Assembly (NCBI RefSeq): GCF_008801925.2
Contig: NZ_CP062803.1
Span: 4,278,001-4,342,000 of the forward strand
DNA from: Cupriavidus basilensis
Lineage (GTDB): Bacteria; Pseudomonadota; Gammaproteobacteria; Burkholderiales; Burkholderiaceae
DNA: 64,000 nt
Reading direction: 5' to 3'
Below are positions 13,756-30,942 of the stretch, piece by piece. A program made the position numbers and the translations under genes. Every line of letters starts with the position of its first letter. Within the stretch, counting starts at the first letter, position 1. The notes below the pieces were generated by a model. It saw nothing but the letters and a program-made list of their open reading frames with translations, did not search any database and had not been told where the DNA came from.

Positions 13756-16700
13756 TCAACGCAGCGACTGTAGTACTGAGGAAAAATAGGAAGGGTACGC
13801 TGCCAGCACTGTATCGAACTGCTGTGGGGAATTGCGAGCATGCTCTAAAACGTCGCCCTTCGTCGCAGGTATGCCGGCGCAGATTGGCTTCAAGTCCTGA
13901 GCCAACATGCGGTCCGTAAATCCAGCCTCATGTATTGCGATACTTAGCCGGTCTGGGAGGCCATATTTCAGCTCGCTTTGGAGCAGCTTAAGCCGCTCTA
14001 CGACCAGTTCTTCATTGGCCGTCTCAAAGTAAGTGACAAGCGCTGTGAAATATAGAGAGAATTCATAACCGAAACAGTTGTCACATAGTTCAACCACGTC
14101 ATCCGTGGTGAACTTTCGCGACTGTTCACCATGCTGTTTAGCGATTTTCTCTTGATGTATGGCTTCCTCGGTGTGACGATATGATGCTCCAGAAATCCAT
14201 AGCTGTGCAATTAAGAGTAGGCGCTCGCGTCTAATACAACGCGCAAAGATTTCGCTATCGCCGATAGTGTCAAGTAACGGCCAGATGGTGTCCAATAATG
14301 CGGATTCGGAATCCCGAGAAGAAATAACTACTTTCTCAAAATTATTTTGACACCAGGTGTAAATCCCTTCGAGGACGCCAATGCTTAAAAGTGTGCGGGA
14401 ATTTCTATGTTGAGCTTCGGAATCCGGAACACGGTTATCCACTTCCTCAGCAATTATATTGAACAATCCAATGAGGGAAATTCGCTGACCTACATTTCCA
14501 AGGGCGTAAGCAAGAGTTGACTGTGCCAGCGTCGTCACAGTTAACATAAAATCGTCGAACGATTTTTCCCCTCTATTGGCTTGCAGGAAGCTCGCGACTG
14601 CGGTGACCAGCCGCCACTTCAAATCCACTTGGCGTTTAGCACTTGTCGTCATCCCGAGGCCAGGGGCTCGGGAGATTATTTCTGTTACCAAATCGAACGC
14701 TTGAGTTTTCCCTTCGACAAGGGCACCAATTATTACGGACGTATCACAGATTTTCATCGTCCTGTCGTCGTTCACAATCGGCTCTAGCAACTCAAAAAGC
14801 GAACTGCCACTCGGCTCCATGTTTTCAGCGTCAAGGAGATGCTGTACTCCCCTCCATTTCCAACCGTCGCTGCCGGCTCGTCCGTCATAAAGTCGAGGGT
14901 CAGCGAATATGACGGACCCTTCAATATGCATGCCCGCACGGCCGGTCCGTCCCATGAGATTCTGAAAATCACGAACCTTGATACGCTCCCCAGCTTGGAG
15001 CGTCGTCGGCACTACGAGATATCGCAACGGCAGATTTACGCCCTGTGCTAGAGTGGAGGTGCAAATTACGAGCGGAATAAGCTCCTCCCTCATAGCATGC
15101 TCGACACAGGTGCGAATACCTTGTGGAATATTCCCGTGGTGCATTAGCATACCGAGACGAGCCGCTCCAGACGCAAAGGAATCGACGCCGAAGTGTTTCG
15201 TATGTAGAGTAACGAGCTTACCTAGTTCGGCCGGGTCAGCGAATTGAGCTGGTGAAGCATAAGGCAAATCGCGTCGATAGCAGTCTGCGGCCATTTTCAC
15301 AAGGGTCGAAACGCTGCCTTTCAGTCCGCAAAATATAGCGACGCTACCTTGAGCAGCAAGTTTCAGCCCAAGATATAAAGCAATGCTTAGTGGGTCATCT
15401 TTTTTAGGAAAGTCTCTGTCAAGCCGCTCACGCTTGAACTTTGTGAGTCGTATAGGTTCAATAACCCGAGGCACGAAATACGGGGGGTCATTAGGTCCAC
15501 CGAGTACATCAAATTCCAATGTACCTAGAGCCCGCCGCCAGCTAGCAAATACGACCGAACGCAACATCGGTACAAGACTGTTGCCGGCGACAACGCGAGC
15601 ATGCTTGCCAATAAGCCAGTCTGCGACCGCACGTCCGTTTGCAATGACCGCAGATATAAGCACGACCTGTGCATGCTGCGGAATCAGCTGCTTCAGGGTA
15701 GTCAACAACAACTCGTAAGTCGCGCCGCGACTACCGGAGTCGAACTGATGGCCCTCATCATAGACGACCAGCCCGATTGCATCCGCTAGTTCGGGTTGTT
15801 GCCTGAGGACGTACAGCAATTTCTCTGGGGTGACAACCAGGACCGATGAAGAATATCCGAACGGGTTGCCGAACAGTCCACCCAGCACGTCGCGGAAGTC
15901 CTGTTGCAGAACGTCAGTGAGTTCGCTGACCGAGACCATTTCGCCGGTGAACGCAGCACGAAGCGAGTTGGAAATCTCCTGGCACAACGCTCTGAACGGT
16001 GCTACCACGACCGCGGCCTTTGCGCGACGAGAAATGAAAGCACTACGGATAATCAACTCAATCGCGCGACTCTTGCCGGCACTGGTTGGCATTTGAATGA
16101 CGGCCGAGGCTCCCGCATATAGGCCTTCCTGGCCTAACAAGTGCTGAGCAGGCCATAATTCGCCTACGAAGTTCTTCTTCCGGAGTACATGTGCCCACTG
16201 TTCCTCGTCCAGCCTTGAGTACGCTGGCAACGTGCGTCTGCTGGAGTTGGCGAGCTTCCGAAGTACTATGGCAACCAATAGGTCTGCGTATGCAAGTTCA
16301 TGAGCAGAACCACGAGCGTAGACTTCCTTGCGCAAGGCCGCACAATGCCGAAGGACGAGACGTTCATCAACACCCTCTGTCGATAAGAAGATGCCGGCTG
16401 AGCGAAGAACAAAGCCAATAGCAGTAGCAAAACGGTCACCGGCCTCCGGCATCCAATCTCGCCATCTTTCTGATAGCACGCGGCGAACGACCGCAGCAAG
16501 CGAACCAGAGTTGTCTAGCTGTCGGCTATCAAGCATCCTGCTAATGACCAAGGTGCTTCCGGGTGTCTCTCCTAGATAGAACGACGCGGCAGCCAGGGTC
16601 AGAAGCTCATCATCGATTTCGGAGTCAAACTTAGACTCCACGTATGCATAGAAGAACGAAGCGGCAAACTGCAGACCCTGACGGTCTGCCACCGAAATCC

Positions 16701-16908
16701 GCGTGTACAGCGTTCCTCTCTCAAGGTACTGGTTACAGAGGTTCGCCGCCTCGTCGCCAAGAATTCCTACCGTTAGCAGAAGCAGGTCGGAGGGCTTTGT
16801 CCCTGGAGGAATTCTAATGTGCTCAGCCTCCGGGACCGAGTACTCATACATTCTCGCCTTTGAGCGAGTAATGCTGAATATGCGGCGTGAGTTTGATTCA
16901 GGCCTCAT
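13756..16908 (-). CDS. hamB: Hachiman-type SF2 helicase (HamB-like)
   Basis: A 1050-residue DEAD/DEAH-box helicase. Walker A is QMPTSAGKSRAIEL (273-281) and motif II is YDEGHQ (384-387). Motif III-like ISAVIANGR, then HHGNIPQGIRTCVEHAM, CTSTLAQGVNLPLRYLVVP and a motif VI-like QNLMGRTGRAGMH complete the Ski2-like core. About 270 residues of helical domain precede the helicase and about 380 follow it. It overlaps the upstream DUF1837-like gene by 11 bases. A nuclease of that family followed by such a helicase is the two-gene Hachiman anti-phage layout (the related AbpAB pair looks similar). The genes are clearly less GC-rich than the core chromosome. Helicase certain; system assignment likely. 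Confidence 0.85.
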   Translation of the reverse strand: MRPESNSRRIFSITRSKARMYEYSVPEAEHIRIPPGTKPSDLLLLTVGILGDEAANLCNQYLERGTLYTRISVADRQGLQFAASFFYAYVESKFDSEIDDELLTLAAASFYLGETPGSTLVISRMLDSRQLDNSGSLAAVVRRVLSERWRDWMPEAGDRFATAIGFVLRSAGIFLSTEGVDERLVLRHCAALRKEVYARGSAHELAYADLLVAIVLRKLANSSRRTLPAYSRLDEEQWAHVLRKKNFVGELWPAQHLLGQEGLYAGASAVIQMPTSAGKSRAIELIIRSAFISRRAKAAVVVAPFRALCQEISNSLRAAFTGEMVSVSELTDVLQQDFRDVLGGLFGNPFGYSSSVLVVTPEKLLYVLRQQPELADAIGLVVYDEGHQFDSGSRGATYELLLTTLKQLIPQHAQVVLISAVIANGRAVADWLIGKHARVVAGNSLVPMLRSVVFASWRRALGTLEFDVLGGPNDPPYFVPRVIEPIRLTKFKRERLDRDFPKKDDPLSIALYLGLKLAAQGSVAIFCGLKGSVSTLVKMAADCYRRDLPYASPAQFADPAELGKLVTLHTKHFGVDSFASGAARLGMLMHHGNIPQGIRTCVEHAMREELIPLVICTSTLAQGVNLPLRYLVVPTTLQAGERIKVRDFQNLMGRTGRAGMHIEGSVIFADPRLYDGRAGSDGWKWRGVQHLLDAENMEPSGSSLFELLEPIVNDDRTMKICDTSVIIGALVEGKTQAFDLVTEIISRAPGLGMTTSAKRQVDLKWRLVTAVASFLQANRGEKSFDDFMLTVTTLAQSTLAYALGNVGQRISLIGLFNIIAEEVDNRVPDSEAQHRNSRTLLSIGVLEGIYTWCQNNFEKVVISSRDSESALLDTIWPLLDTIGDSEIFARCIRRERLLLIAQLWISGASYRHTEEAIHQEKIAKQHGEQSRKFTTDDVVELCDNCFGYEFSLYFTALVTYFETANEELVVERLKLLQSELKYGLPDRLSIAIHEAGFTDRMLAQDLKPICAGIPATKGDVLEHARNSPQQFDTVLAAYPSYFSSVLQSLR

Positions 16909-17710
16909 TCGCGGCTAGCTCATATAAGTTGTGGGCCAACGTCATTAGGTCCTGGCCTCTAATGACCAATAGAAGAAGCAAGTCGTCGTCGCCATGGACG
17001 GCCGTGAGAGTCGCCTTAATCTCGTCAACATCAAAGGCCCCGTCGTGCAGCACTGCCGCCGCGCCGATTTGTTCCCTGAATGGCCTGTCTGGCTTACATT
17101 GAAAGCGCTCAACCATCTGCACTCGCTCGCCGTCACCTTTTTCGGCCGCGCGCCTCTTCATCGAGTTCAATGTAAAGGCTTGGCGCAAGCTATCCTTCGC
17201 AGCATCATCTACCGCGTGTTGTAGCCGGGGCTTCGTGGCAAAGCCGTCCGTCAACTTCGCCTTTATTTCAAACGTAGTCAGCGTATCGTGAGCTGCAATT
17301 CCGTCTTTTGCAATCTGCAGGCCGATGACGTCGGTTCCCTTTACAGAGTCGTTGGGCGTCGCCTTGTCCAGATACCTCCATCTGGGGACCCAATGGTTCA
17401 AGACATACTCGAGGAAATCTGCCACGAGAATCTCGGCAAAGTCTCCAGCGCGCACAGAGGGGCCGGGCTTTTGCGTTGCGCTCGGGAAAAGCATGTTTGT
17501 GAGGTACTGAGCCCTCGTCAGGCCCGTTCCTGAACGAAGCATGTCCAGCATGCCGTCTTCGCAGTAATGCTGCCGCAGGTGGCGCGCCCACGCAGACAGC
17601 ACGGCAGCTTCCGGCTGATGCAAGAACTCGTAGACGACCACCTGTTTGCCCTCATCAGTGGTGACCGCCTCACATTCTTGAAGCCAATTGAGATGGTCAG
17701 GGGCAGGCAT
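16898..17710 (-). CDS. hamA: Hachiman-type nuclease (HamA-like, DUF1837)
   Basis: A 270-residue protein. RAGDFAEILVADFLEYVLNHW (E94), VKGTDVIGL (D127) and TTFEIKAKL (E148, K150) make up a PD-(D/E)XK-type site in the order expected for DUF1837/HamA. In Hachiman the HamA nuclease is held in check by the HamB helicase and released on damaged or phage DNA; that is family knowledge, not visible here. The start is the ATG at 17710 with AGGGG upstream, but both the start and the ribosome site lie inside a perfect 24-base palindrome (17698-17721). The stop overlaps hamB by 11 bases, so the two are co-translated. Confidence 0.82.
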   Translation of the reverse strand: MPAPDHLNWLQECEAVTTDEGKQVVVYEFLHQPEAAVLSAWARHLRQHYCEDGMLDMLRSGTGLTRAQYLTNMLFPSATQKPGPSVRAGDFAEILVADFLEYVLNHWVPRWRYLDKATPNDSVKGTDVIGLQIAKDGIAAHDTLTTFEIKAKLTDGFATKPRLQHAVDDAAKDSLRQAFTLNSMKRRAAEKGDGERVQMVERFQCKPDRPFREQIGAAAVLHDGAFDVDEIKATLTAVHGDDDLLLLLVIRGQDLMTLAHNLYELAANEA

Positions 17711-19187: not shown

Positions 19188-19246
19188 AGTTCATAAAATT
19201 ATGCCATGCTTAGTAGCCGCCAAACAGTTGCAGAAGGAGTGCTCCG

Positions 19247-19333
19247 ATGAAGACTCGGCCAAAGCTAGTCTGCGTTAGCGAAAGCCGGCGCCAAACAAAT
19301 TCTATTCGCATTCCTAGATGTTCAATACGATGA
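19247..19333 (+). CDS. Possible 28-residue leader peptide before the STAS/GHKL gene
   Basis: ATG at 19247 is preceded by AGAAGGAG with 7 bases of spacing, the best ribosome site in this area. The frame (MKTRPKLVCVSESRRQTNS at its start) stops at 19333, overlapping the start of the next gene at 19318, which itself has no ribosome site. This suggests a leader peptide coupled to translation of the GHKL gene. No homology is claimed. Confidence 0.4.
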   Translation: MKTRPKLVCVSESRRQTNSIRIPRCSIR

Positions 19334-19802
19334 TTGTTAGATTTCCTGTAACGCTTGACCGGGACCGATTGCCAAGGCTTTTTGCCGAGCTTGACGCAGC
19401 GCGGGACCAGGACGAAGTCTCAGTGGACTTCGCACCTCTACGGTTCTCCATGCCGACCGGCATGCTCGCTCTGGGTTCCAAGTTGCGGCAGTGGGTTGAT
19501 TACCGGAGGGAGAAGGGCTTCACTTCGTATGCGAACGGAATCGACGAAGGGAAGCAAGCGCATTCGTACCTGATGCATATGGGATTTTTCCATTTCATCG
19601 GCATGGATGCCGGCAAGGACGTTGGCGAGGCTCGAGGGTCCCGGAGCTATGTACCTATTACGCGCATAGGTCGTCCAGACGTCGATGTTGGTCGCCAAGG
19701 CGTGGAGGACTGGTACACGGCAATCGAAGCTGAAGCGAGGCGGATTGCCGGCGTGCTTGCAGGTTCCTTCGACGATTCGCAGCCGCTCAGGACGTATACG
19801 TA

Positions 19803-21427
19803 GTCGGTCCTGCAAAATTGGCTTGAGCTGCAAAAGAGGTGATAAAGGGCGGCACCGGCAGTTTCAGTCCCGCAGCTTCGGCAGGGCGAGCTGGCCGACG
19901 GGCACAACGGTTCGGCCAAGCAAGCGCAGCAGCAGGAAAACAAAAAATACCGCCGACAGTCCCAGGCGGACGATGGCCCGCAGCAGCCAGCGCAGATTGA
20001 AGCCAGCAGCACAAAGGATCGGATGCAGTGCGTCACCAGCTTCGCCCTTGAGCCAGTTGCGCCGTAGTCCGTGATCCGCCTTGACGTGCCCGATAACGGG
20101 TTCGACAGCCTGGCGCCGCTTGAGCATTCTGCGCTGGACTTGGTTCATCGTCTTGATTCGCCCGCGATGCACGATCTTCACCGGAGCCACCTCGGCATCC
20201 ACGCCGCGATATCCCAGATCGACGATAGCCGTGTTGGGTTTCGGGGCGCCGGGCAGCTCCTGCAGCAGGATGGTGGTCTGCTCGAGCTGGGCATGCAGTG
20301 TGTGGCCGTCGTAGGGATTGCCGGGGAAGCTGCGTGCACCGACGATCAGGCCTTGGCTCGCAGTAACTGCCAGGCTGACCTTGACGCCGAACTCATACGG
20401 CTGGCGCGCCTTGCCCTTCGAGATGCACTCGACTTCCGGGGCGTGCAAGGCATAGAGCTTGTTCTTGTCCTTCGGACGTTGCCGACAGATTCGCCACGCC
20501 CGCTCGATCCATGGCTGCATCGTGGCTTGCATGGCGTCCGATGTCCCGGACAACTTGCGCTCGATATCCCGCAGGATCCGGCCGAGAATGGTGCGCTGGC
20601 GTTTGAGCACTCGACGCAGTCGCTTGAACTGTTTGGCGTGCGCGTATCCGCCCGCACTGCGGCGCAGCTTCTTGCCCTCGCGCTCGAAAGTCTGCTTGAG
20701 GTTCAGGCCTGCACGCTTGGCCAGGCGGACCAGTTTGGCACGCGCCACATCCAGCAATCGACTGTCGGTCGGATAGGCGATGGCCTTCTCCTGGACCGTG
20801 GTGTCGACGATCACACACTCGAACTCAGCCGGCTTGATCGCGCCCATCTGCACGGCAGCGGCAATCGTGGTCGCCAGCAACTCCTCGACGCCGGCCTCGC
20901 CCAATGCCTGCCGGAAGCGCACCAGATTGGTCGGGTCACATGGCAGACGGGGCTCGAAGTATTCCTGGCCGCTGAAATATTGGTAGTAGACGTCTTGCGC
21001 CCACCGCTCGCACACCGACTCGTCACTCTCGTTGTATGCATGCTTGAGGTACAGCAGTGCGACCATCAGACGGATCGGCAACCGCGGCCGACCCGCGGCA
21101 CTGATACCGGCACCCGCCACCGCCAGGGTCGGGCCGAACAGATCCTCGCCCACCTCCAACTGTCCGTCTCGCGCCTGGCGTGCGAACACTGGCGCCAACG
21201 TCGCCTCGATCTGCGGCCACGGCATACGCATGGCCAGAACCGCCAGCGGATGGCGCAGGTCGATCATGGCGTCAAGGCGGCTACGGAAAAAGTCGGGCGT
21301 GCTCATCGGCAAGTCGAAAACTCCCAGAAAGGGGATCAGATTCATATTCCTTCTGGGAGTTCTCCATCACCCCAATTCTCGCCATGGCCTTGCCACGCTT
21401 GGCTTCGTAACATTCTGCAGGACGGAC
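19803..21427 (-). mobile_element. IS5-family insertion sequence, copy 2 (intact)
   Basis: A 1625-base element bounded by GTCGGTCCTGC at 19803 and GCAGGACGGAC ending at 21427. The flanking 6-base direct repeat is TACGTA (19797-19802 and 21428-21433). It is nearly identical to copy 1 (11562-13185) but in the opposite orientation and with the frame of its transposase intact. Both copies sit at YACGTA targets. Confidence 0.92.
19864..21345 (-). CDS. IS5-family transposase (intact)
   Basis: A 493-residue transposase. The N-terminal part has RLPIRLMVALLYLKHAYNESDE and DVYYQYFSGQEYFEPRLPCDP. The catalytic region has FECVIVDTTVQEKA (DTT motif), then IVDLGYRGVD and a C-terminal KRRQAVEPVIGHVKADH block with the catalytic Glu. 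It is one continuous frame and is probably active. It could supply transposase for the frameshifted copy 1. The last 80 or so residues are hydrophobic (RLGLSAVFFVFLLLRLLGR). The start at 21345 follows AGGAAT. Confidence 0.92.
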   Translation of the reverse strand: MNLIPFLGVFDLPMSTPDFFRSRLDAMIDLRHPLAVLAMRMPWPQIEATLAPVFARQARDGQLEVGEDLFGPTLAVAGAGISAAGRPRLPIRLMVALLYLKHAYNESDESVCERWAQDVYYQYFSGQEYFEPRLPCDPTNLVRFRQALGEAGVEELLATTIAAAVQMGAIKPAEFECVIVDTTVQEKAIAYPTDSRLLDVARAKLVRLAKRAGLNLKQTFEREGKKLRRSAGGYAHAKQFKRLRRVLKRQRTILGRILRDIERKLSGTSDAMQATMQPWIERAWRICRQRPKDKNKLYALHAPEVECISKGKARQPYEFGVKVSLAVTASQGLIVGARSFPGNPYDGHTLHAQLEQTTILLQELPGAPKPNTAIVDLGYRGVDAEVAPVKIVHRGRIKTMNQVQRRMLKRRQAVEPVIGHVKADHGLRRNWLKGEAGDALHPILCAAGFNLRWLLRAIVRLGLSAVFFVFLLLRLLGRTVVPVGQLALPKLRD

Positions 21428-21947
21428 TACGTACTCTATCCGAGAGGTCATTCGAAACGTCTTTGAACACTCTCAGGCCAACGAGTGTTATATCTGTGGG
21501 CAGCGCTGGTATGACGGGAAAGTCGAAATCGCGATTCTCGACGAGGGTATCGGTATTGCACGCACTCTCTCTGAATTCCACGGAATTGCATCTGATGCTG
21601 ACGCATTGCTGCTCGCGGTTCGTCCAGGCATCTCTCGTACAAGTGGCTACAGCGGTTGGCAAAACATCTACGACAACTCGGGATTTGGCTTGTACGTTAT
21701 GAGTGAGCTTGCTGCAAACTTCGGCTGGTTTGCACTGGGAAGCGGAGATGCGCTGCTGTTCGGATACCAACGGCAGCGCGCAGTGAGCGCTGCCTCATTC
21801 CGAGGTACGTTCTTTGGTATGAAGTTTCTCAACACTCCCGCAGATATCAGGTCCGTTCTTGATGACATCATTGCTGCAGGCGAGGAGGATGCTCAACAAA
21901 CTGGCATCCGCATCCGTGCATCTGGCCGAAGTCGAATCGTGTTGTAA

Positions 21948-22743
21948 TGCGTAACGCCTCGGATTGTCGCTTTCATACCCTTTGGGGAGCTGAAAGACTA
22001 TGTTGCCTCGGGCAAGAAGCGGGTGACGTGGCCTACCCCCGAGTCATGGGGCGCCTTTCCGATTTGATGAATTCCTTCTCAAAACATAAGGACAGACAGC
22101 TCAAAGAGCTGGCAGATTTTGCCGCCTCGCGGCAAGCCAAATGCAATATATCGCTTGGCAGCAGTGCGCTCAGAGTGGGTCGCCCGCGCTTACCGGCTCG
22201 GTTCTGTATACCGCCAGAAATAGTGCGAATGCCGGTGGTGCTTGACCTGCTTCTTCTCAGGGAAGAACCGCACCTTGCCGGCAGGACCGGCGTCGGCCTC
22301 TACTTCCACGTGACTGGCTGCTGTTGAGGTACCGGGCGGCAAGAGGTTCACGGCAGCCGAAGCGTATTGGAACCTGGATGCGCTCGAGAATCCCGTTGGC
22401 TCCCGGGGGCTGGCGGAACGTTCGAGGTGTCCAAGTAAGATGGCACCTTGATGCCAGACGCCTGTTTCCCATGATGCTAATTCTTGATTCCGCGCGGCGT
22501 GGTGCCCATCACATTGCGCGTCGCCCATCAAGTCGGGAAGGTTCTCAAGTATGTGCCAGAGGGCGGCGTGGTGCAGCCTCGCTATAGCTTCTACAAGTGA
22601 CCAGTTTTTCCTCACTCCACGCGCCGGTTATAAGGGGGGCTTCGACCTGCCGACCTCACACAAGGACGGAAGCAAGTGCGGCAGAGTTGCTACCGTTTGC
22701 GCGTGGGGCATTGGGTTCATTCAGGCTCGAAGCCTCGGGTGAG
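21948..22743. other. Degenerate region with gene fragments
   Basis: No complete gene stands out in these roughly 800 bases. Directly after the GHKL stop, in the same frame, a startless stretch (21948-22067) reads IVAFIPFGELKDYVASGKKR and WPTPESWGAFPI before a TGA, like the tail of a lost protein. Near 22499-22600 a plus-strand frame reads RVAHQVGKVLKYVPEGGVV then QPRYSFYK. On the minus strand a frame ending at 22190 closes with KVRFFPEKKQVKHHRHSHYF. These protein-like tails without starts suggest debris from older insertions. Confidence 0.45.
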
Positions 22744-23082
22744 TCACTTCGAGTCCACAACTGGAAGCTGGTAGTACATGTTCCACGCGGCCCGCGCGCG
22801 CCTGGCTGCAATGTGGAACTCAGCTAGCGCAGCAGGGGTTGGGGTGCTAAACGCCTCAAGCCGGTGGAGCGCGGTTTCGGCTGCGGCGTCTAGCCGGGTG
22901 GCCGTTGCAAGCAACTTGGCCTGAGCTTCGCGCAGGGTGATGTCGGCGGTTAAGCCTGCTGCTGACAGGGCGAACTGCCGGGCGTCGTGCTCGGCGCGGT
23001 GCGGCTTGAAACCGGGAATCGGTTCGTGAAGCAGTTTTGAAGTCAGCGCGGCTAACGCGCGTTCAACGTCCAGGCTCAGCAT
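22744..23082 (-). CDS. Hypothetical 112-residue protein, end of the HAD operon
   Basis: A small, mostly helical protein (ALAALTSKLLHEPIPGFKPHR, TLREAQAKLLATATRLDAAAE, AEFHIAARRARAAWNMYYQL). No family recognised. The ATG at 23082 lies inside the end of the 54-residue gene (20-base overlap) and is preceded by GTAGGAG, so it is translated together with it. It is the last gene of the minus-strand operon that begins near 26311. No signal peptide or membrane segment. Confidence 0.55.
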   Translation of the reverse strand: MLSLDVERALAALTSKLLHEPIPGFKPHRAEHDARQFALSAAGLTADITLREAQAKLLATATRLDAAAETALHRLEAFSTPTPAALAEFHIAARRARAAWNMYYQLPVVDSK

Positions 23083-23227
23083 CTCCTACGTCCTTGGCAA
23101 ATGTGAAATAGGTGGCATCAAGCGCCTCTGGCTCACCAATCGATTGGATTTGATGCGCTGTCGGGAGCGTGTTGAGCACCCAAGCGAGGCGTCCTTCTGC
23201 TAGCCCAATGCTCCATTCGTAAGTCAT
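23063..23227 (-). CDS. Hypothetical 54-residue protein in the HAD operon
   Basis: A small protein beginning MTYEWSIGLAEGRLAWVLN and continuing HQIQSIGEPEALDATYFTF. Its ATG overlaps the stop of the upstream HAD gene in an ATGA (23224-23227), and it overlaps the next gene by 20 bases. This tight packing supports it as a real coding gene although it is short. No family recognised. Confidence 0.55.
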   Translation of the reverse strand: MTYEWSIGLAEGRLAWVLNTLPTAHQIQSIGEPEALDATYFTFAKDVGDAEPGR

Positions 23228-23685
23228 GAGTCACTGCGGACCAAACGTGTCAACCTGAAGCGCAGTTTCGATTGAGGACCTGCAGCTGCAATACCGGTTT
23301 CTGGCTCGCAAGCGATGTATCGTTCGTCTCTTCGGCTCGCGCTGACCACACTAGGATGGTCGTCAATAGCCAACCATTGGGTCAACCTTCGCCTGTGAGC
23401 TTCCGCCATGATTTCGTCAGCGCGAGAAGACCTATATGTTTCGACGACACCTTCAAAGCGGCTGCCGAGTGGTCCTAGCAGGCGAATAAGGGCCTTGTCA
23501 TCAAAAAGTCGCCGCCAGTCAGAACTGACAACAATCCGGACCGCAGGGTACGGAGCGAGCAGTGAGTCGAGTATCGGCAGCCAGACAAACAGATTTGGAT
23601 TGCCGATGAGACGGAAATTTTCATCTACGGCCTGCTCCCCATAGGGATGGAGAACGCCGTCGAAATCTAAAAAGATTACCTGCAT
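23224..23685 (-). CDS. Small HAD-fold phosphatase-like protein 1 (HAD_SAK_2-like)
   Basis: About 153 residues. HAD motif I is FLDFDGVLHP, motif II is IVVSSDWRR and motif IV is WLAIDDHP, so all acidic catalytic positions are present. The short form with DFDGVLHP and no large cap fits the small HAD family named for RNA-repair fusion proteins (HAD_SAK_2). Likely chemistry is phosphate-ester hydrolysis on a small molecule or nucleic-acid end; the substrate is unknown. I chose the ATG at 23685 over the GTG at 23694. The stop overlaps the 54-residue gene by four bases. Two more HAD genes of the same type lie upstream in the operon. Confidence 0.78.
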   Translation of the reverse strand: MQVIFLDFDGVLHPYGEQAVDENFRLIGNPNLFVWLPILDSLLAPYPAVRIVVSSDWRRLFDDKALIRLLGPLGSRFEGVVETYRSSRADEIMAEAHRRRLTQWLAIDDHPSVVSASRRDERYIACEPETGIAAAGPQSKLRFRLTRLVRSDS

Positions 23686-23765
23686 GCTCACCACGTGTCG
23701 CTAGAATCCAAGAGCTCGCAATTGATGCCGCGGTGTTAAACGACGGACCTTCCGAGCCCAGCCGG

Positions 23766-23942
23766 CTACGGAACAGCCAGTTCATGCGGCCCAATATCTC
23801 CCCCGGAGACCAGGATATCGAATTCGAGGTCGGATGGAAATGCGTACGGGGTCGAAATCCTAGTGCAGGTCGGACAGTACGTGTATGGACGGTGGTCTCT
23901 GGGCCCAGAGTATGCCTCCAGTCTCCAGCGGAGACATTGCTG
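23766..23942 (-). pseudogene. Startless CxxC-containing frame between two HAD genes
   Basis: The 273-base gap between HAD genes 2 and 1 contains a minus-strand frame without a start codon. It reads RWRLEAYSGPRDHRPYT, YCPTCTRISTPYAFPSD and LEFDILVSGGDIGPHELAVP before TAG. The composition and the CPTC pair look like a real protein end, perhaps a small zinc-binding protein that lost its start. Alternatively it begins at an unusual codon. Low confidence. Confidence 0.3.
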
Positions 23943-23958
23943 CTAGAGTTCATTTCTG

Positions 23959-24438
23959 TCATCCTTGATGTGGCTCGCCAATGGCCCACGCTCGGATGCG
24001 GTTTCGAACCGAGGCGTCCCAAATACCGAGTTCGGGGTCACATAAGACGACTTCGGAGGGGAGTGGGTCAGGGAACTGCGAAGCGTGGTCGTCCAGCACG
24101 CACCACTCGCCTTCGTTAAGGCTCAATTGCGCTACCGCATGCCTTATTCCATTCCACCGCGTCAGTTCGAAATTTGTAACGCCACAGTAGCGAGCGGCTA
24201 GCAGCCCAAGGTATTCGAGTAGCTCTGGCTCGCCGACGAGTCGACGCCATGCGCTGTGCACGATAATGTGGACATCTGAGCCGTGCAGCAGCTCTTCGAG
24301 TATCTGGGTCCAACGGAACAGTCTTCCCTGCTGAATCGCGGCGCGTCGAGGCATGCGCATAGCAAAACTCTGCAATGCAGAAACCGGGTGTAGCACGCCA
24401 TCGAAATCGAGAAACAAGTACTTGCGGCGCGCCATCAT
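23959..24438 (-). CDS. Small HAD-fold phosphatase-like protein 2
   Basis: A 159-residue protein with motif I FLDFDGVLHP, motif II IIVHSAWRR and motif IV CVLDDHASQFP. It is clearly related to HAD proteins 1 and 3 in this operon but diverged in sequence, so the three are not recent duplicates. The start at 24438 (or the adjacent ATG at 24435) follows the stop of the 74-residue gene with no spacer, which indicates coupled translation. The catalytic residues are intact. Substrate unknown. Confidence 0.78.
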   Translation of the reverse strand: MMARRKYLFLDFDGVLHPVSALQSFAMRMPRRAAIQQGRLFRWTQILEELLHGSDVHIIVHSAWRRLVGEPELLEYLGLLAARYCGVTNFELTRWNGIRHAVAQLSLNEGEWCVLDDHASQFPDPLPSEVVLCDPELGIWDASVRNRIRAWAIGEPHQG

Positions 24439-24663
24439 TCAGTTTGTGCATCCGAAGATGCGCCGGTGCTGACAGTACGCGATGAGTTGCTCTGCCAAGT
24501 CCTGACACATTAGATAGCGTTCATGCACTTCGGCCTCTGTGGAACCAAGGACGTACTTGCCATCAATCAGGCGCGCCAAAAACTTTGATTGTGCACTTGG
24601 CACTGCGCTGAGCGTTGTCTCGCTAAGAAAGTCGGGGGGAACTGTTTGCTCTACTGTATTCAT
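24439..24663 (-). CDS. Hypothetical 74-residue protein in the HAD operon
   Basis: A small acidic protein (MNTVEQTVPPDFLSETTLSA, then SKFLARLIDGKYVLGSTEAEV and CQDLAEQLIAYCQHRRIFG). It abuts HAD protein 2 with zero spacing and follows HAD protein 3 by 40 bases. The VLGSTEAEVHERY segment looks like a short helical domain. No family recognised; kept because of operon packing and the clean ATG. Confidence 0.55.
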   Translation of the reverse strand: MNTVEQTVPPDFLSETTLSAVPSAQSKFLARLIDGKYVLGSTEAEVHERYLMCQDLAEQLIAYCQHRRIFGCTN

Positions 24664-24703
24664 CTATTTCGCCTTGGTTTTCTGCTCGCGGACTCAAGCA
24701 GCC

Positions 24704-25222
24704 TCAATCGTTTGCTTTGTTTGCTGCAGGCATATGGCAGTGCATCACCTTGAGCTTGAGCTGAAGTTCAAGCAGAACGCCAGGCTCCGCGATGCCAAAA
24801 ACCGGATGCGTGCGCACAAGCCTATCCCTGCACCAGGCTGGCCAATGCTCATAGTCGTCATCGAGTGCGAGCCAGCCGTGCGGACAGCGACGCTGAACAT
24901 CGGTCCAGATTTGCAGACCTCGTGGCGTCTCGACATACTCGTCGCGCCTCGTGTAGCGTTTGTGGTAAGTCGCACCGATGACTCGCTGCTGCAATGCGGG
25001 TGAAAGCTGTCGCTTTGCGTAACTATATCCGCCGCGCCACAGCAACCAGGCCGTGGAGAGAATTATGCGGACAGCTGGATAAGGCGCCAGAACTTCCTCG
25101 AGAATTCCCTCATTCTCGAACAATTTGTGGTCGGGTGTTTGCAGCCACGGACCCTTGCTTGTGCGATATACGCACTCGGGATGGAGAACCCCATCGAAGT
25201 CCAAGTAAAGCACGAACGACAT
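24704..25222 (-). CDS. Small HAD-fold phosphatase-like protein 3
   Basis: About 172 residues. Motif I is YLDFDGVLHP, motif II is IILSTAWLL and motif IV is WLALDDDYEHWP. An insertion with RRDEYVETPRGLQIW sits between motifs II and IV, so it is the largest of the three. The ATG at 25222 lies five bases after the stop of the upstream 135-residue gene and is preceded by AGGGTGA; the longer frame to 25279 would overlap that gene heavily. Catalytic positions are intact. Confidence 0.76.
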   Translation of the reverse strand: MSFVLYLDFDGVLHPECVYRTSKGPWLQTPDHKLFENEGILEEVLAPYPAVRIILSTAWLLWRGGYSYAKRQLSPALQQRVIGATYHKRYTRRDEYVETPRGLQIWTDVQRRCPHGWLALDDDYEHWPAWCRDRLVRTHPVFGIAEPGVLLELQLKLKVMHCHMPAANKAND

Positions 25223-25227
25223 GTTTT

Positions 25228-25635
25228 TCACCCTGCCAAAGCGTGCAAATCCCATACTTCCTGGGTGACGCTTCGCCACCGCGAGACTCGGTAACGCTTA
25301 CACCACTCTCGCCACAACCATGCCCCTTCCTCACACACGCCGGGCTCTTCTACCAGTTGGTATAGACGTCCACTGGCCGTGCAACCAGACATTGACGCAA
25401 GGTCGAACCAGGAAATGGCGCTACTAATTCGCGCACGAGAGTAGACAGTGCTGCCTACAACGTGCCATTGACCCGCTGGGCGCTCATAGATGCCCCATGC
25501 GCTTAGCTTCGAGATGGGTTCGCGCTCTGGAGTGGGCGGCTTGCGGATAACTATGACTAGCCCGTTCGCTATGTCAACGCACGTAGCTATCTTAAGAGCA
25601 TCGATAGAGTCTTGCCCGTCTCTGCAGCGTGTCAT
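25228..25635 (-). CDS. Hypothetical 135-residue protein in the HAD operon
   Basis: It begins MTRCRDGQDSIDALKIATC and contains GLVIVIRKPPTPEREPISKL, WGIYERPAGQWHVVGS and CEEGAWLWREWCKRY. The ATG at 25635 overlaps the stop of the upstream gene in an ATGA, which fixes this start over the longer open frame. It is rich in Trp and Cys in its C-terminal half. No family recognised. Confidence 0.6.
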   Translation of the reverse strand: MTRCRDGQDSIDALKIATCVDIANGLVIVIRKPPTPEREPISKLSAWGIYERPAGQWHVVGSTVYSRARISSAISWFDLASMSGCTASGRLYQLVEEPGVCEEGAWLWREWCKRYRVSRWRSVTQEVWDLHALAG

Positions 25636-26069
25636 CTTTGGGGGGAGGATGAAACGATATTCACATATCGTTCTTGCAACGCGTCCCACGTTGAATGCAC
25701 ATGGTCAACGAGCCGTGCCCTGGCTTCCGGGGCGCCGGTAGGGGACCAATCCAGGCGTTGAAGCGTGGAACTCGCTGCGTCCACGACCAAATCCGCCTCT
25801 AACTGATGTAGGTTGGATTCGGCTACCAATGCCTGTTTTGTGCGCTCCAAGTACGCCATGAGTTCCTCTCTCGGGAGCCACATTAGGTCGAGCACAACCT
25901 TAGTGATGTACCAGTGCAGCATGTCAACACGCCACTCGACTTCACCGGGTAGCTCGTATGGCGACACGCTAATTTTCGTGCCGTCGACGCTGGCCACCAC
26001 CGAAACGCCGAATCTTGCAAGGGCGGCCCGCGTGGTTGCAGGAACATAGCTGGCGCGTGCTGTTCTCAC
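25632..26069 (-). CDS. Hypothetical protein, second of two tandem paralogues
   Basis: A 145-residue protein from a GTG at 26069 with AGGAG eight bases upstream. The GTG overlaps the stop of the previous gene (GTGA). Its first 60 residues match the preceding 81-residue protein: SYxPxTxRxxLxxF, then ELPGEVxWRxDxLxW. The extra C-terminal part (PREELMAYLERTKQALVAE, RLVDHVHSTWDALQERYVN) is helical. No family recognised. Confidence 0.6.
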   Translation of the reverse strand: MRTARASYVPATTRAALARFGVSVVASVDGTKISVSPYELPGEVEWRVDMLHWYITKVVLDLMWLPREELMAYLERTKQALVAESNLHQLEADLVVDAASSTLQRLDWSPTGAPEARARLVDHVHSTWDALQERYVNIVSSSPQR

Positions 26070-26311
26070 CTTGTCTCCTGAAAAGATTTGAGCGCAGCCA
26101 TACGCCACCGCAGGAGGTCGGTGCGCCAATCTACTTCGCCTGGCAACTCGATTGCCGACAATTCGTGAGCGTCTTCACCGAAGTGGCAGAGCTCCCATCG
26201 CCTAAATTTAGAAAGCACAAGCCGGAGCGTTGGTGGGATATAGCTAGTCAAGGATGGACCTCTGCGGAGCACAGCACCTCCGGCCATTCCGGGGGGAGGT
26301 AGCACCTGCAT
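26066..26311 (-). CDS. Hypothetical 81-residue protein, first gene of the HAD operon
   Basis: It starts MQVLPPPGMAGGAVLRRG and carries SYIPPTLRLVLSKFRRW and ELPGEVDWRTDLLRWRMAA, the same pattern as the next gene. It is the first gene after the operator region and so probably the start of a minus-strand operon of at least nine genes running to 22744. Its stop overlaps the GTG of the next gene. Function unknown. Confidence 0.55.
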   Translation of the reverse strand: MQVLPPPGMAGGAVLRRGPSLTSYIPPTLRLVLSKFRRWELCHFGEDAHELSAIELPGEVDWRTDLLRWRMAALKSFQETR

Positions 26312-26337
26312 CGCATCAGTACGGCGGCAATTGTAGG

Positions 26338-26375
26338 CATATACGTTGTATATGTAAACGTCAACAACGTATATG
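26338..26375. promoter_or_regulatory. Perfect 12-base inverted repeat, probable operator of the HAD operon
   Basis: CATATACGTTGT (26338-26349) and ACAACGTATATG (26364-26375) are exact inverted copies separated by 14 bases, in the AT-rich gap between the HAD operon and the divergent double-XRE gene. A further partial copy (GCGTTGTAAT) lies near 26403-26412. XRE-type regulators bind such palindromes, so this is the likely autoregulatory operator controlling both directions. Confidence 0.75.
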
Positions 26376-26452
26376 GCTACAACTCCCATGCTATAGACGT
26401 CAGCGTTGTAATCATGGATATATCGTCACTTTAGAACTGACGGTTCCATGGC

Positions 26453-26908
26453 ATGGTGTCGCTCCGGCAGACCTTCGCTCACAACCTAAGGAGACTCCGC
26501 GAGGAGCGAGGTTGGTCACAGGATGACCTGGCTGCGCTCATCCAGTCGGACCGGACCTCTATAAGCCGCATCGAGCGGCTAGCGCCAAACGTTGCGCTTG
26601 ATAAAGTTGCGCTGTTGGCGACGGCCCTGGGGGTTGATGCTCGCCGCTTGCTGTCCGCGGGAAGCCGTGATGCGAGGACTACCGCAACCCGGGGGGTATC
26701 GCCAACGCCGCAACTCGTTGGCGCGGCCGTTCGCCGCCACAGAGAGTCGGCGGGAATCTCGCAACGAGAGCTAGGCGATAGGGTCGGTCTTGACCGCAAT
26801 CACATATCGAGAATCGAGGTGGGTTCGACAAATATTGCCTTGGACACCTTTGAGAAAGTGGCAACCGCTTTAGGAGTATCGGCCGCAGACTTGCTCGGGC
26901 TGAAATAG
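26453..26908 (+). CDS. Transcriptional regulator with two XRE helix-turn-helix domains
   Basis: A 151-residue protein made of two Cro/C1-type domains. The first is FAHNLRRLREERGWSQDDLA with SDRTSISRIERL (about residues 7-67). The second is VGAAVRRHRESAGISQRELG with LDRNHISRIEVG (about 87-150). A Ser/Thr/Arg-rich linker joins them. Having two DNA-binding domains and no separate sensor domain suggests binding of a split operator such as the inverted repeat just upstream. It is transcribed away from the HAD operon and probably represses it. Confidence 0.88.
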   Translation: MVSLRQTFAHNLRRLREERGWSQDDLAALIQSDRTSISRIERLAPNVALDKVALLATALGVDARRLLSAGSRDARTTATRGVSPTPQLVGAAVRRHRESAGISQRELGDRVGLDRNHISRIEVGSTNIALDTFEKVATALGVSAADLLGLK

Positions 26909-27491
26909 CTTGAAAGCGTGAGAACTTCTAGAAAGTTGCTACTGTGCTCACTCGGAAACCCCATGGCTTCCGCCGTTCGCGAGCAACTGCGTCGCGCGAT
27001 ACCTGATGGCGTCTTGGGGTGCCGAAACTAGCACCGCCGCTTTCGCATCTCGCGTTTAACGGGTGTGACCGCTTACGACGAAGTGACCCCAGAAGGGGAC
27101 GCGCTGGGCTCTATCGACCTGCCCGCCCAGTGATTCGGCACCAATTGAAAGGTTGGGTGGATTACCTATACTCATCCGCGAGAGTCGAAGTTTTTTCTGG
27201 GTCCCGGCACCCGTCGTCTCGCGCGCCATGTGGCGTATGGTGAACCACCGGTTTTTGGTCGATTCTCACTTCGTTTATTGGATGCATCCGCCGGCAATGC
27301 GAGCACCCTGCGGCATGATGAGCTCTTGGAGGCTTGTTATGCCCGGCATTTGCCTTGCGCCAGCGGACCGCTTGTCCGCCCTTTATTCCTTCCCTGTAAG
27401 TAGTCGTTATTTCGAGCATAGACGACGCGTGCGCGTGCCCGCTTGCTGCAAACGCGCGCCGTAGGCGGCTGCAAAGTAGTACCGAAGCAAC
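26909..27491. other. Gene-poor stretch before the recombinase region
   Basis: No complete gene supported. One startless plus-strand frame (about 27150-27390) reads RRLARHVAYGEPPVFGRFSL, LRLLDASAGNASTLRHDELL and ACYARHLPCASGPLVRP before TAG, which looks protein-like and may be a remnant. Nothing else recognisable. Confidence 0.4.
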
Positions 27492-27740
27492 ATGTCCCGG
27501 CGGCAAACAATCACTTTGTCGTTCCGAGGGGCACGAATTCGCGTGCGGCTTGTAAGTGCCTATAGCGACACTCACCTCCTTCCCGGCGAACGTGAGGTGC
27601 TCATCGCTCTATTAACCTGCTACGCAGTCTCACTGGCTACTGTGCAAGATGATGACGAGCAAAAAGGGGAAACGTCCAATATTCGACCGAAAAACCATCG
27701 TTGCCGCGCAGAGAAAGGCCACATTTGGAGTCAGGTATGA
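27492..27740 (+). CDS. Hypothetical 82-residue protein
   Basis: It begins MSRRQTITLSFRGARIRVRL and has GEREVLIALLTCYAVSLATV. Its stop overlaps the ATG of the decayed recombinase fragment (ATGA at 27737-27740), suggesting that the two were once translationally coupled. The last 30 residues fall inside the degenerate tandem duplication, so the native C terminus is uncertain. No family recognised. Confidence 0.4.
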   Translation: MSRRQTITLSFRGARIRVRLVSAYSDTHLLPGEREVLIALLTCYAVSLATVQDDDEQKGETSNIRPKNHRCRAEKGHIWSQV

Positions 27741-28116
27741 AAATCGCCCTATATGTCCGCTTCGGCACACGCGGTCAAATGGAAGAAGTGTCGATGAAGC
27801 CCAGATTGCGGCCTGTAGGAGGTGGGCTAAGAAAAAAGGACATACCTCGCTCGCGAAGGCGCAATGTGATGCCGCACAAAATGACGACGGATAAATATCG
27901 GCGACGGCCAATAAACGACCCCAAAAGAATCCCGCACCGCAGTGTGGCGAAGACTGGCCATTGGAGAAAGATATGAGAATCGTTCTATATGTCCGCGTCT
28001 CCACCGACCGTCAAGCGGAACAAGGAATGTCGATGGAGGACCAGATTGCAGCCTGCAAGACGTGGGCCAAGGAAAAAGGACACGTAATCGTGGAGATTTT
28101 CCAGGAGCGGGGGGCA
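27650..28116 (+). repeat. Two diverged tandem copies around the recombinase start
   Basis: Bases from about 27650 to 27850 align with about 27880 to 28090. Shared stretches include the upstream CCAAT...CGACC, the TTGGAG before the start, the ATG with CTATATGTCCGC, GTCGATG, CAGATTGC and AAAAAAGGACA. The offset is 236 bases at the ATG and 240 at the end, because copy 1 has lost about four bases inside the gene. The copies differ at many positions, so the duplication is old. Confidence 0.75.
27737..27850 (+). pseudogene. Decayed 5' fragment of a serine recombinase
   Basis: It reads MKIALYVRFGTRGQMEE where the intact gene has MRIVLYVRVSTDRQAEQ. The catalytic Ser (VST) has become FGT. A small deletion then shifts the frame, and the matching DEAQIAACRRWAKKKGH continues in another frame (intact gene: EDQIAACKTWAKEKGH). 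The homology ends near 27850. It is a remnant, not a working gene. Confidence 0.75.
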
Positions 28117-29643
28117 TCAGCATTTGCGCTCGAAAAAAGGCGTCCCGAATTTGACCGCATGATTGCCGCCGCACTATCCGACGCGAAGCCGTTTGACCTC
28201 ATTGTTGTCCACATGCAAAGTAGGTTTTACCGGCGAAATGCGGACAGAGAATTACTAGAGAGGCAACTGGAAAGCAAGGGCGTCCATGTGGTAACACTTG
28301 GCCAGCCTCGTCCGGAAGACGAAACGTCTTCTTTCATTGTACGAAATGTCACTGGAATCGTCGATGAAGCTCAGAGCATAGCAAGCGGGAAGCGCGTGGC
28401 CCAATGCATGGCAGCAAATGCCAAAGCCGGCTACTTCAACGGGTCAAGGGCTCCATATGGGTACAAAACAAAAGCGACAGACATTCCCGCTCGTAGCGGG
28501 GTAAAGAAGATTCTCGTAGTCAACGAAGATGAAGCGGATACTGTCCGCAGAATCTTCGCACTAGCCCGATTTGGGAAGAACGCCATGGTGATGGGGATGA
28601 AGCGAATTGCAGAGGAACTGAATGCAAACGGAACTCTCCATCGAGGCACACAGTGGACAATCAGACATGTGGAAGGTGTACTCAAAAATTCCGTTTATTA
28701 CGGAAAGCTAGTCACGTTTCGAAGAAACTCGAGAACTGGAGCGAATAATCCGCCTTCGAAATGGGTTACCACGAACGTTCCGCCGATACTGGACAAAGCC
28801 ATTTTCGACGACGTCCAACACAATCTAGCAGAACGAAAACCACCTAACACTGAAAATCGAGCATCCCAGGTACCGACATTGCTAACGGGTCTGCTTATCT
28901 GCAATCACTGCAAAAAAGGGCTGATGCTAGTGACAGGAAAATCGGGCAAGTACAAGTACTACCGCTGCCTCTCCAAGCAAAAGGTCAGCCCTGACGCGTG
29001 TACCTGCCCAAATTTTCCAAAAACTGATTTGGAGAAGGTTGTACTCACGGCCGTGGTCGAGCGGGTTTTAGACCCGCAACGCGTGAGTCGCCTCGTGGGT
29101 GAACTGGGAGAGATATGGAAAGATGCGAGGAAGCCTGATGCCGGGCATCTGCGCACACTGCGGACCCGTGCATCTGCCCTAGAGGCCTCCTTGGCTCGCA
29201 TCTATGAGGAACTCGATAAGCAGCGCCTAGACCTTGATTCAACGTTGCAAGACTTCATCCGAGCGAAGCAACAGGCGCGGGCGACGGTCATCGAAGAGTT
29301 GCGAGTGCTCGACGCACGCCAGCATCTTCCATTTCGAAAATTCGGACGAGACCAGATTAAGAGCTTCGTTGCAGCAGCAAAAGCAGCGCTTAGTGACCCG
29401 GCAAACCCTCTTGCAAGACAATTCCTGCATGCGGTGGTCACGGAGATTTGTGTGGACGCGAAAAAATGCCGGATTCGGGGCAATCGAGCCCAGCTAGCTT
29501 CGACCATTTCGCGGTGGAAAGGCAACGAAGAAGAAGTGCCCAGTGACCTATCAGATTGGTGCGCCCGGCTGGGATCGAACCAGCAACCCCTGCCTTCGGA
29601 GGGCAGTACTCTATCCATTGAGCTACGGGCGCACAGGGTATGA
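27973..29643 (+). CDS. Large serine recombinase (island integrase)
   Basis: A 556-residue serine integrase, the probable enzyme for insertion and excision of the island. The catalytic domain begins LYVRVSTDRQ with Ser10. The recombinase domain follows (NAKAGYFNGSRAPYGYKTKA), then a zinc ribbon (LLICNHCKKGLML, YRCLSKQKVSPDACTC) and a long coiled coil. The ATG at 27973 follows GGAGAAAG; the frame opens earlier at a TTG. The last 25 or so residues (CARLGSNQQPLPSEGSTLS) are encoded antisense to the tRNA-Arg gene, so the C terminus is supplied by the attachment site. Confidence 0.92.
   Translation: MRIVLYVRVSTDRQAEQGMSMEDQIAACKTWAKEKGHVIVEIFQERGASAFALEKRRPEFDRMIAAALSDAKPFDLIVVHMQSRFYRRNADRELLERQLESKGVHVVTLGQPRPEDETSSFIVRNVTGIVDEAQSIASGKRVAQCMAANAKAGYFNGSRAPYGYKTKATDIPARSGVKKILVVNEDEADTVRRIFALARFGKNAMVMGMKRIAEELNANGTLHRGTQWTIRHVEGVLKNSVYYGKLVTFRRNSRTGANNPPSKWVTTNVPPILDKAIFDDVQHNLAERKPPNTENRASQVPTLLTGLLICNHCKKGLMLVTGKSGKYKYYRCLSKQKVSPDACTCPNFPKTDLEKVVLTAVVERVLDPQRVSRLVGELGEIWKDARKPDAGHLRTLRTRASALEASLARIYEELDKQRLDLDSTLQDFIRAKQQARATVIEELRVLDARQHLPFRKFGRDQIKSFVAAAKAALSDPANPLARQFLHAVVTEICVDAKKCRIRGNRAQLASTISRWKGNEEEVPSDLSDWCARLGSNQQPLPSEGSTLSIELRAHRV
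29557..29632 (-). tRNA. tRNA-Arg (anticodon CCG)
   Basis: On the minus strand the 76-base gene starts GCGCCCGTAGCTCAATGGA, has the anticodon arm CTGCC-CTCCGAA-GGCAG (anticodon CCG) and the T arm GGTTCGATCCC, and closes with CGGGCGCACCA. The acceptor stem pairs fully and CCA is encoded. Its 3' end faces the island, as is usual for tRNA attachment sites, and the recombinase gene overlaps it completely on the other strand. Confidence 0.95.
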
Positions 29644-30020
29644 CGGGGTACAACGCGGGCAGCGCGCGAGTGCCGCTGCCGGAAAGGCGCATAGCATACC
29701 GTGTTTGTCGAACGACGTCCACGCCGGGCTGAAAAGTGCAGCCAGATGACGTCTCTTGCAAGCCGCTTTTGCCTCCATACGGTAGGTCTTTGGGGCTATA
29801 ATCGCGAGTTATTTGTGTAAAAAAAGGGCTGCGCAACGTCCACATCAGGTCCGGGGATGATGGTGCCGCGCCCTGCTGGCTGGCCCGTTTCGGGGCAGTT
29901 GGCACCGGATAATAGTCCGATGCGCGCAATTGGCCAGGGGGAATTGGCCACCGAGCAAGCGGCCACATAAGCAGCCGATCGCGAGCGGCCACAGGTTTCC
30001 TGCAAAATTGAGAGTTGAGT
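29644..30020 (+). promoter_or_regulatory. Intergenic region upstream of the cytochrome gene
   Basis: About 375 bases without a gene. A TATAAT at 29797-29802 is a good -10 candidate, but no matching -35 at the right distance was found, so the promoter is tentative. The long leader (over 200 bases) before the ATG at 30021 contains no recognised riboswitch. Confidence 0.3.
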
Positions 30021-30878: not shown

Positions 30879-30896
30879 GCGCAAGCAGCTCTCAAC

Positions 30897-30927
30897 AAAA
30901 AAGCCCGCGGCATGCCGCGGGCTTTTT
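30897..30927 (+). terminator. Intrinsic terminator after the cytochrome gene
   Basis: The stem GCCCGCGGC/GCCGCGGGC with a short AT loop is preceded by A's and followed by TTTTT. It ends the cytochrome transcript, and the A-run lets it also serve the converging hemN transcript. Confidence 0.92.
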
Positions 30928-30942
30928 GCTTTCCGGTGTGAC

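Follow-up and report, generated by a model that had tools for sequence, protein, structure and literature searches.

A divergent XRE regulator beside an operon of three HAD_SAK_2 proteins and the recurrent small protein orfC in a genomic island of Cupriavidus basilensis

The Swiss Army Knife (SAK) RNA-repair system has a linked RNA ligase or kinase partner, and an RNA-repair review reportedly lies behind the SAK in the name of the HAD_SAK_2 family (PF18143). HAD phosphatases without a cap domain often use large substrates, while the capless enzymes of the KdsC type use a small sugar. The SANTA domain (PF09133; M18BP1/KNL2) is described as a eukaryotic module of centromere proteins. In XRE-controlled divergent operons, such as those of restriction control proteins, phages and HipB-type repressors, a divergent helix-turn-helix (HTH) regulator is accompanied by an intergenic inverted repeat. 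RNA repair in phages and mobile elements is treated in PMC7824862 and PMC5512222, and the SANTA domain in PMC13294675 and PMC9210943. Here we analyse a stretch of 64,000 nucleotides (nt) of Cupriavidus basilensis (GCF_008801925.2, NZ_CP062803.1, positions 4,278,001 to 4,342,000), referred to below as the window, which is part of contig 1 of a genome of 8.94 Mb. It holds an operon in which three HAD_SAK_2 proteins (HAD1 to HAD3) are encoded together with the small open reading frames (ORFs) orfA to orfG, next to a divergent gene for a double-XRE regulator. Among the titles listed in literature searches, none is on this operon.

The operon is a real, uncharacterised module and its grouping is not a matter of chance, because some of its members recur elsewhere and a fusion of orfC with a HAD exists. 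Ten closely spaced ORFs (Table 1) run along the minus strand from position 26311 to 22744, three of them encoding HADs; the original prediction, made from the letters of this DNA, had spoken of at least nine short genes. It had most of them overlapping by ATGA or GTGA. Such overlaps are present at four of the nine junctions (A/B, B/C, HAD2/E and HAD3/F), so that "most" was an overstatement, and the other five junctions are longer overlaps (E/HAD3 and F/G) or gaps of 0 to ~40 nt. The HAD1, HAD2 and HAD3 proteins score 98.9, 63.6 and 86.7 bits against PF18143, respectively, which is 2-4 times the curated cut-off of 27.5 bits. As read by eye from the alignment, each retains a DFDGVLHP (DxDG) motif I, the Ser/Thr of motif II and the Asp pair of motif IV. 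Scores and alignment thus bear out the prediction of three diverged HADs with full motifs, and its kinship to RNA-repair-associated HADs holds at the family level. In contrast to described HAD_SAK_2 proteins, those of the operon are stand-alone, present in three copies and accompanied by no recognised ligase or kinase, and their link to Swiss Army Knife RNA repair stems from the family name alone. In the HAD tree, HAD1 stands apart, HAD3 groups with proteins of two other loci (L042 and L103), and HAD2, on a long branch by itself, falls inside the same larger group as HAD3; the three are old paralogues. Among the small ORFs, a stretch of orfA matches residues 6-56 of orfB at 37%, and the two tandem paralogues of the original prediction are therefore related, in part of their length. 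Five relatives of orfD measure 125-144 amino acids (aa) against 74 aa here, so that orfD is apparently the N-terminal half only.

The recurrence was followed from orfC. With a single protein as query, relatives turned up in 29 of 150 genomes searched in the family, counting that of the window, and there are matches in 10 plasmid records. When 84,980 species genomes were scanned with one pattern, 32 loci came up, of which Burkholderia, Cupriavidus and Caballeronia account for 21, and a profile search of 398 genomes across the phylum gave seven matches, six from the same order; the seventh is weak, lies antisense to other genes and is probably false. Removal of six near-copies from 71 collected loci left 65, including the window, which are not phylogenetically independent of each other. 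Gene maps were made with a home-made caller, whose codon model was trained on long ORFs of the collected loci and replaced an earlier model from core genes that had missed most island genes. Because the caller missed orfC in the window and in several other loci, the counts of orfC and HAD genes are based on profile searches of all ORFs. A HAD match lies within 5 kb of orfC in 28 of the 65 loci (in one of them, L113, the HAD has no readable motif I), and in 12 of the 28 it is co-oriented with orfC and at most 1 kb away. In L039, a single frame of 403 aa comprises orfC, a weak HTH match under the cut-off and a HAD, and in L065, L109 and L126 a HAD directly follows orfC, L126 being from another family of the order. 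Relatives of orfD occur near orfC in L029, L031, L036, L052, L061 and L104. The original prediction had made its grouping depend on conservation of the small neighbours with HADs in other genomes, with the 135-residue protein and the ELPGEV pair as the proteins to look for. The former, orfC, does stand near HADs elsewhere, and the XRE and orfD genes recur as well; the ELPGEV protein orfB was found in its own genome only, among 250 genomes of the order, and in none of the plasmid records searched. The orfA, orfE, orfF and orfG frames matched the window only, among 34 loci, the one separate search made with orfA.

It is noted that three orfC-family matches stand in a row in six Cupriavidus loci (L047, L096, L100, L102, L115 and L121). 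A cluster of genes of ~170 aa is represented near orfC in 28 of 55 loci (L026, L028, L032, L034, L040 and L041 among them), and its members in L041 and L044 match DUF6471. A BPSL0761-type small gene (one member tested) is often found beside orfC, before or after it. Related operons also contain a calcineurin-like phosphoesterase gene and an exoribonuclease-like gene, the latter under the cut-off.

Seen from the HADs, the same 150 genomes contain 58 PF18143 matches, spread over 38 of them. For 13 of the 58, the window's three included, orfC is no more than 5 kb away (in L165 by profile match); with 33 orfC places and 150 genomes of ~6 Mb each, a hand calculation gives an expectation of ~0.02. 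Around PF18143 matches, 43 further regions were taken, of which 13 belong to a separate Cupriavidus HAD family whose neighbours are largely common and which the custom HAD profile barely detects or misses. The rest gave 26 tree rows, with the identical L152 and L153 counted once and the near-copies L184 and L185 counted twice; L190, L191 and L193, too short or late-starting, were left out of the tree. Of these 26 HADs, all outside the chromosomal Cupriavidus family, 16 have an XRE gene on the other strand no more than 4.5 kb upstream, and one has orfC nearby. All 66 rows of the tree yield 24 XRE-HAD pairs, 20 upstream and divergent (three from the window) and 4 downstream on the same strand, with none in the other two classes; a divergent XRE gene is therefore common beside this HAD family, beyond the window. 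The chromosomal Cupriavidus HAD_SAK_2 proteins measure ~200 aa and had no XRE match scored (L172, L174, L175, L177-L183, L188 and L189, 12 of the 13 regions). In L157, L158, L169, L190 and L193, an unknown gene of ~160 aa, a HAD gene and an exonuclease-like gene with a weak Rv2179c-like match follow each other in this order, headed by a divergent XRE gene in four of the five and by an HTH-cluster gene in L157.

The regulator of the operon shows two XRE stretches by profile match, shares 38% identity with the regulator at the head of the L043 orfC-HAD operon, and matches generic control-protein and regulator models in PADLOC. The inverted repeat between it and the operon has 24-nt arms that are 88% complementary, with a perfect 12-nt core (26338-26349/26364-26375). 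A pattern derived from the site itself has this one occurrence in the window, and 100 shuffles yielded none. The divergent double-XRE regulator and the perfect 12-base repeat that had been predicted are thus both there. A promoter-like TTTACA-17-TACAAT on the minus strand (26358-26330) overlaps the repeat; the scan found two such sites, with 2.6 expected by chance. Given a divergent double-XRE gene and a two-armed repeat, autoregulated repression is the natural reading. The arrangement is like that of the XRE-controlled divergent operons described above in its regulator and repeat, and differs from them in that it heads HAD and orfC genes, with no restriction enzyme or recognised toxin.

Members of the orfC family gave weak, scattered matches to Pfam and NCBIfam, none of them confident. 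For the predicted orfC model, the SANTA domain of M18BP1 is the top match in both Foldseek and VIA, and the LxxW, V-G, S-I and TxSGxxYxL stretches of the two align in order. The hhalign comparison of the orfC family to PF09133 yields a score of 20.4, with E 0.0052 for one comparison and a probability of 7%; this score exceeds those of all 200 shuffles and all 400 decoy segments. Applied to 38 orfC-family members, PF09133 gave one match, with E 0.19 and below the Pfam cut-off, and in 150 genomes it hit 28 places weakly, spread over 27 genomes; all of these stay under the cut-off, and no orfC place is among them. The C-terminal motif GFxxxxxxxFxxGFPxxW, given for SANTA in PMC9210943, was not seen in the orfC-family alignment. 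The family thus seems SANTA-like in its predicted fold, with a modest likeness in sequence through the ordered stretches, and is unlike SANTA in scoring below the Pfam cut-off in each test, in lacking that motif, and in being bacterial and mostly stand-alone. None of the titles listed in literature searches is on a bacterial SANTA domain. We put forward as a tentative and on balance doubtful proposal that mobile islands and megaplasmids carry, in the orfC family, a prokaryotic SANTA-type domain, which docks small HAD phosphatases and HAD pseudo-enzymes, including those beside Tn7-like transposases. If the resemblance is real, a domain of eukaryotic centromere proteins has a bacterial counterpart on mobile elements, and the chromatin modules of the SANTA type, perhaps also the RFTS domain of DNMT1, would have relatives there. 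A phage origin of orfC was considered as well and found no support: a scan of IMG/VR with one peptide pattern gave 15 stretches and 0 relatives, and a PHROG search with two orfC members gave no match.

Not all relatives of HAD1 to HAD3 keep the catalytic nucleophile. On the quick tree of 66 HADs, the motif I Asp changes at least four times, three of the changes being forced by well-supported branches; the unclassed rows from L065 and L042 keep this Asp by eye. One clade of 19 HADs is without it throughout and includes a HAD from each TnsB-linked locus having one (L034, L040, L041, L044, L048, L053, L056, L057, L060 and L064). Its other nine rows come from L042, L098, L102, L104, L110 and L194, and the second HADs of L044, L048, L056 and L057 are in other Asp-less groups. 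With L116 and L117, these ten make up the 12 of 55 loci whose orfC has a TnsB-like cluster no more than 5 kb away. Pfam confirmed TnsA-like, rve and TniB domains on members from L053 and L060, and in L027, L030 and L036 a TniQ-cluster gene (one member tested) precedes orfC. In L165, L168, L170 and L171, an extra gene between the XRE and HAD genes appears by eye to encode a degenerate HAD, with no Pfam match for one member. Without the motif I Asp a protein cannot work as an ordinary HAD phosphatase, and some of these HADs therefore act without catalysis. The repeated loss of this Asp in close relatives provides a clean case to separate catalytic from scaffolding roles.

The reading that we favour, with confidence somewhat short of even, is that a repressor controls the module, that its HADs remove phosphate from a macromolecule, which may be a nucleic-acid end, and that orfC serves as their adaptor. 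As the anatomy of the locus suggests, the double-XRE protein would bind the inverted repeat and keep transcription of the operon low until derepression; on induction, the three small HAD phosphatases with intact motifs would be made. From their size and nearest folds, they appear to have no cap domain, which would make a macromolecule the most likely substrate. A 3'-phosphate or another phosphorylated nucleic-acid end would be favoured by the family, with a phosphoprotein as the main alternative: the former is suggested by the family name, the latter by MDP-1/SCP-like folds and by HipA-type neighbours, and we rank nucleic-acid ends ahead by a small margin. The orfC protein, given the fusion and its repeated adjacency with HADs, would most likely be their docking or adaptor partner. 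What the sequences themselves show is the set of genes with their motifs, the operator-like repeat, the inserted DNA, and the recurrence and the fusion. Repression, the adaptor role and a macromolecular substrate are what we infer; nucleic-acid ends as the substrate and a use in conflict with invaders are guesses. As for the co-regulated phosphatase module originally predicted, the co-orientation, the probable control by the XRE protein and the recurrence of members stand, and phosphatase activity is predicted from the motifs. The role it suggested in phage attack, with nucleotides or nucleic-acid ends as substrate, is unsupported, there being no ligase or kinase recognised in the ten operon ORFs, no firm PADLOC match for the seven operon proteins tried, and many related HADs without the Asp. 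The operon ties a HAD family named for RNA repair by analogy only to a regulator and a small protein family, which can be tested together.

Several observations weigh against the favoured reading. No HAD lies within 5 kb of orfC in 37 of the 65 loci, some of which are cut by contig ends, and the motif I Asp is missing in 26 of the 64 classed HAD rows. A Pfam scan recognised no ligase, kinase, nuclease or HipA domain in the ten operon ORFs, and hence no Swiss Army Knife partner; this search covered the ten ORFs only and not the rest of the genome. The HAD1 model resembles the capless MDP-1, SCP/Fcp1 and KdsC phosphatases, at 11-16% identity, and Foldseek places KdsC/YrbI-type enzymes first, beside MDP-1 (E ~7e-4 to 9e-4). 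This order weakens the argument for a macromolecule, because KdsC/YrbI-type enzymes act on a small sugar phosphate. By sequence, there were 0 matches of the HADs to a solved structure, and T4 polynucleotide kinase-phosphatase is absent among the 50 structure matches listed for HAD1, with later ones possibly holding it. Four of the 27 mapped loci (L154, L163, L166 and L167) have a HipA-type cluster near the HAD (one member confirmed by HipA_C and Couple_hipA), which fits a phosphoprotein substrate equally well. The HADs could then be protein phosphatases that reverse phosphorylation by a toxin kinase of the HipA type, or other regulatory phosphorylation, the operon being a control or rescue module. 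The MDP-1 and SCP/Fcp1 resemblance agrees with this, as does the score of the XRE protein against the HipB-coupled model (71.1 bits, just under the cut-off of 71.65); however, the other 23 loci have no HipA-like cluster and the operon no HipA domain, and we consider this account unlikely, if worth keeping in view.

A similarly low likelihood is given to the view that the main task of orfC and the HADs is to serve mobile elements as regulators or adaptors, such as at the ends of Tn7-like transposons, with catalysis a relic in many. The TnsB-like neighbours of orfC, the ten TnsB-linked loci that all feed the Asp-less clade, and the HTH match between the orfC and HAD parts of the L039 fusion speak for it. 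On the other hand, the motifs are intact in all three HADs of the window, no TnsB-cluster member lies in window positions 18000-31000, and 9 of the 19 clade members are from loci outside the TnsB list. That the HADs are phosphatases of nucleotide signals, in antiphage or anti-defence use, appears rather improbable. Hachiman and type I restriction-like ORFs share the island with them, all three match phrog_1818, a phage protein family without assigned function, and the first Foldseek matches of HAD1 include small-molecule phosphatases. Yet this account rests on location: PADLOC 2.0.0 gave no match for six of seven operon proteins and a weak one (E 0.015) for orfG, and orfC is in no IMG/VR contig within that pattern-limited scan. 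Least probable of all, and by a wide measure improbable, is a chance gathering of unconnected small cargo genes in a mobile island. It would account for orfB and for the frames that match the window only, but not for the recurrence of orfC, orfD, HAD and XRE genes or the orfC-HAD fusion; on the HAD tree, moreover, the orfC label changes no fewer than 11 times, a count biased by the many loci picked for orfC.

Table 1. Coordinates, within the window, of the operon, its regulatory region and other features of the island
Feature	Position	Strand	Remarks
Hachiman HamB + HamA	13756..17710	-	PADLOC; same island
orfG	22744..23082	-	112 aa, without confident match
orfF	23063..23227	-	54-aa open frame
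HAD3	23224..23694	-	HAD_SAK_2 protein with catalytic motifs
orfE	23621..23962	-	113-aa open frame, doubtful gene, overlaps HAD3
HAD2	23959..24438	-	HAD_SAK_2 protein with catalytic motifs, long branch in tree
orfD	24439..24663	-	74 aa
HAD1	24704..25222	-	HAD_SAK_2 protein with catalytic motifs
orfC	25228..25635	-	135 aa, unnamed family, SANTA-like predicted fold
orfB	25632..26069	-	145 aa, ELPGEV protein
orfA	26066..26311	-	81 aa, start uncertain, partial orfB paralogue
Inverted repeat, probable operator	26326..26387		arms 26326-26349 and 26364-26387; between regulator and operon
Double-XRE (two HTH) regulator	26453..26908	+	divergent from operon
Large recombinase ORF	27961..29643	+	serine-recombinase type by eye, no profile; runs into tRNA gene
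tRNA-Arg(ccg)	29557..29632	-	right boundary of inserted DNA

The operon sits in ~40 kb of inserted DNA at the tRNA-Arg gene, which we take as one island. From the end of the XRE gene to the recombinase ORF the distance is 1.05 kb. Of the 16 genomes sampled from the genus, 15, counting that of the window, have conserved DNA to the right of the tRNA-Arg gene; the remaining one (G769) is roughly half complete and shows short matches only. In two relatives (G026 and G138), core DNA left of the tRNA gene matches the window's contig ~10 kb left of the window, and the flanking matches are ~39.6 kb apart here as compared to ~2.9 kb there. An exact repeat of the tRNA end (at least 14 bases) was not found in the 60 kb left of the window or in window positions 1-29700. 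The defence-island setting named in the original prediction agrees with the presence of Hachiman HamA and HamB and, by eye, of the type I restriction-like ORFs.

It should be mentioned that one transposase is apparently present twice by eye (window positions 11644-13124 and 19864-21345), the first copy being split into two frames. The HsdM-like type I restriction N-terminus at 2002-3840, also recognised by eye, is nearly identical to L073:1-305, which is no more than 8 kb away from the orfC operon in genome G009. Downstream of orfG, a 141-aa ORF occupies positions 22190-22615 on the minus strand.

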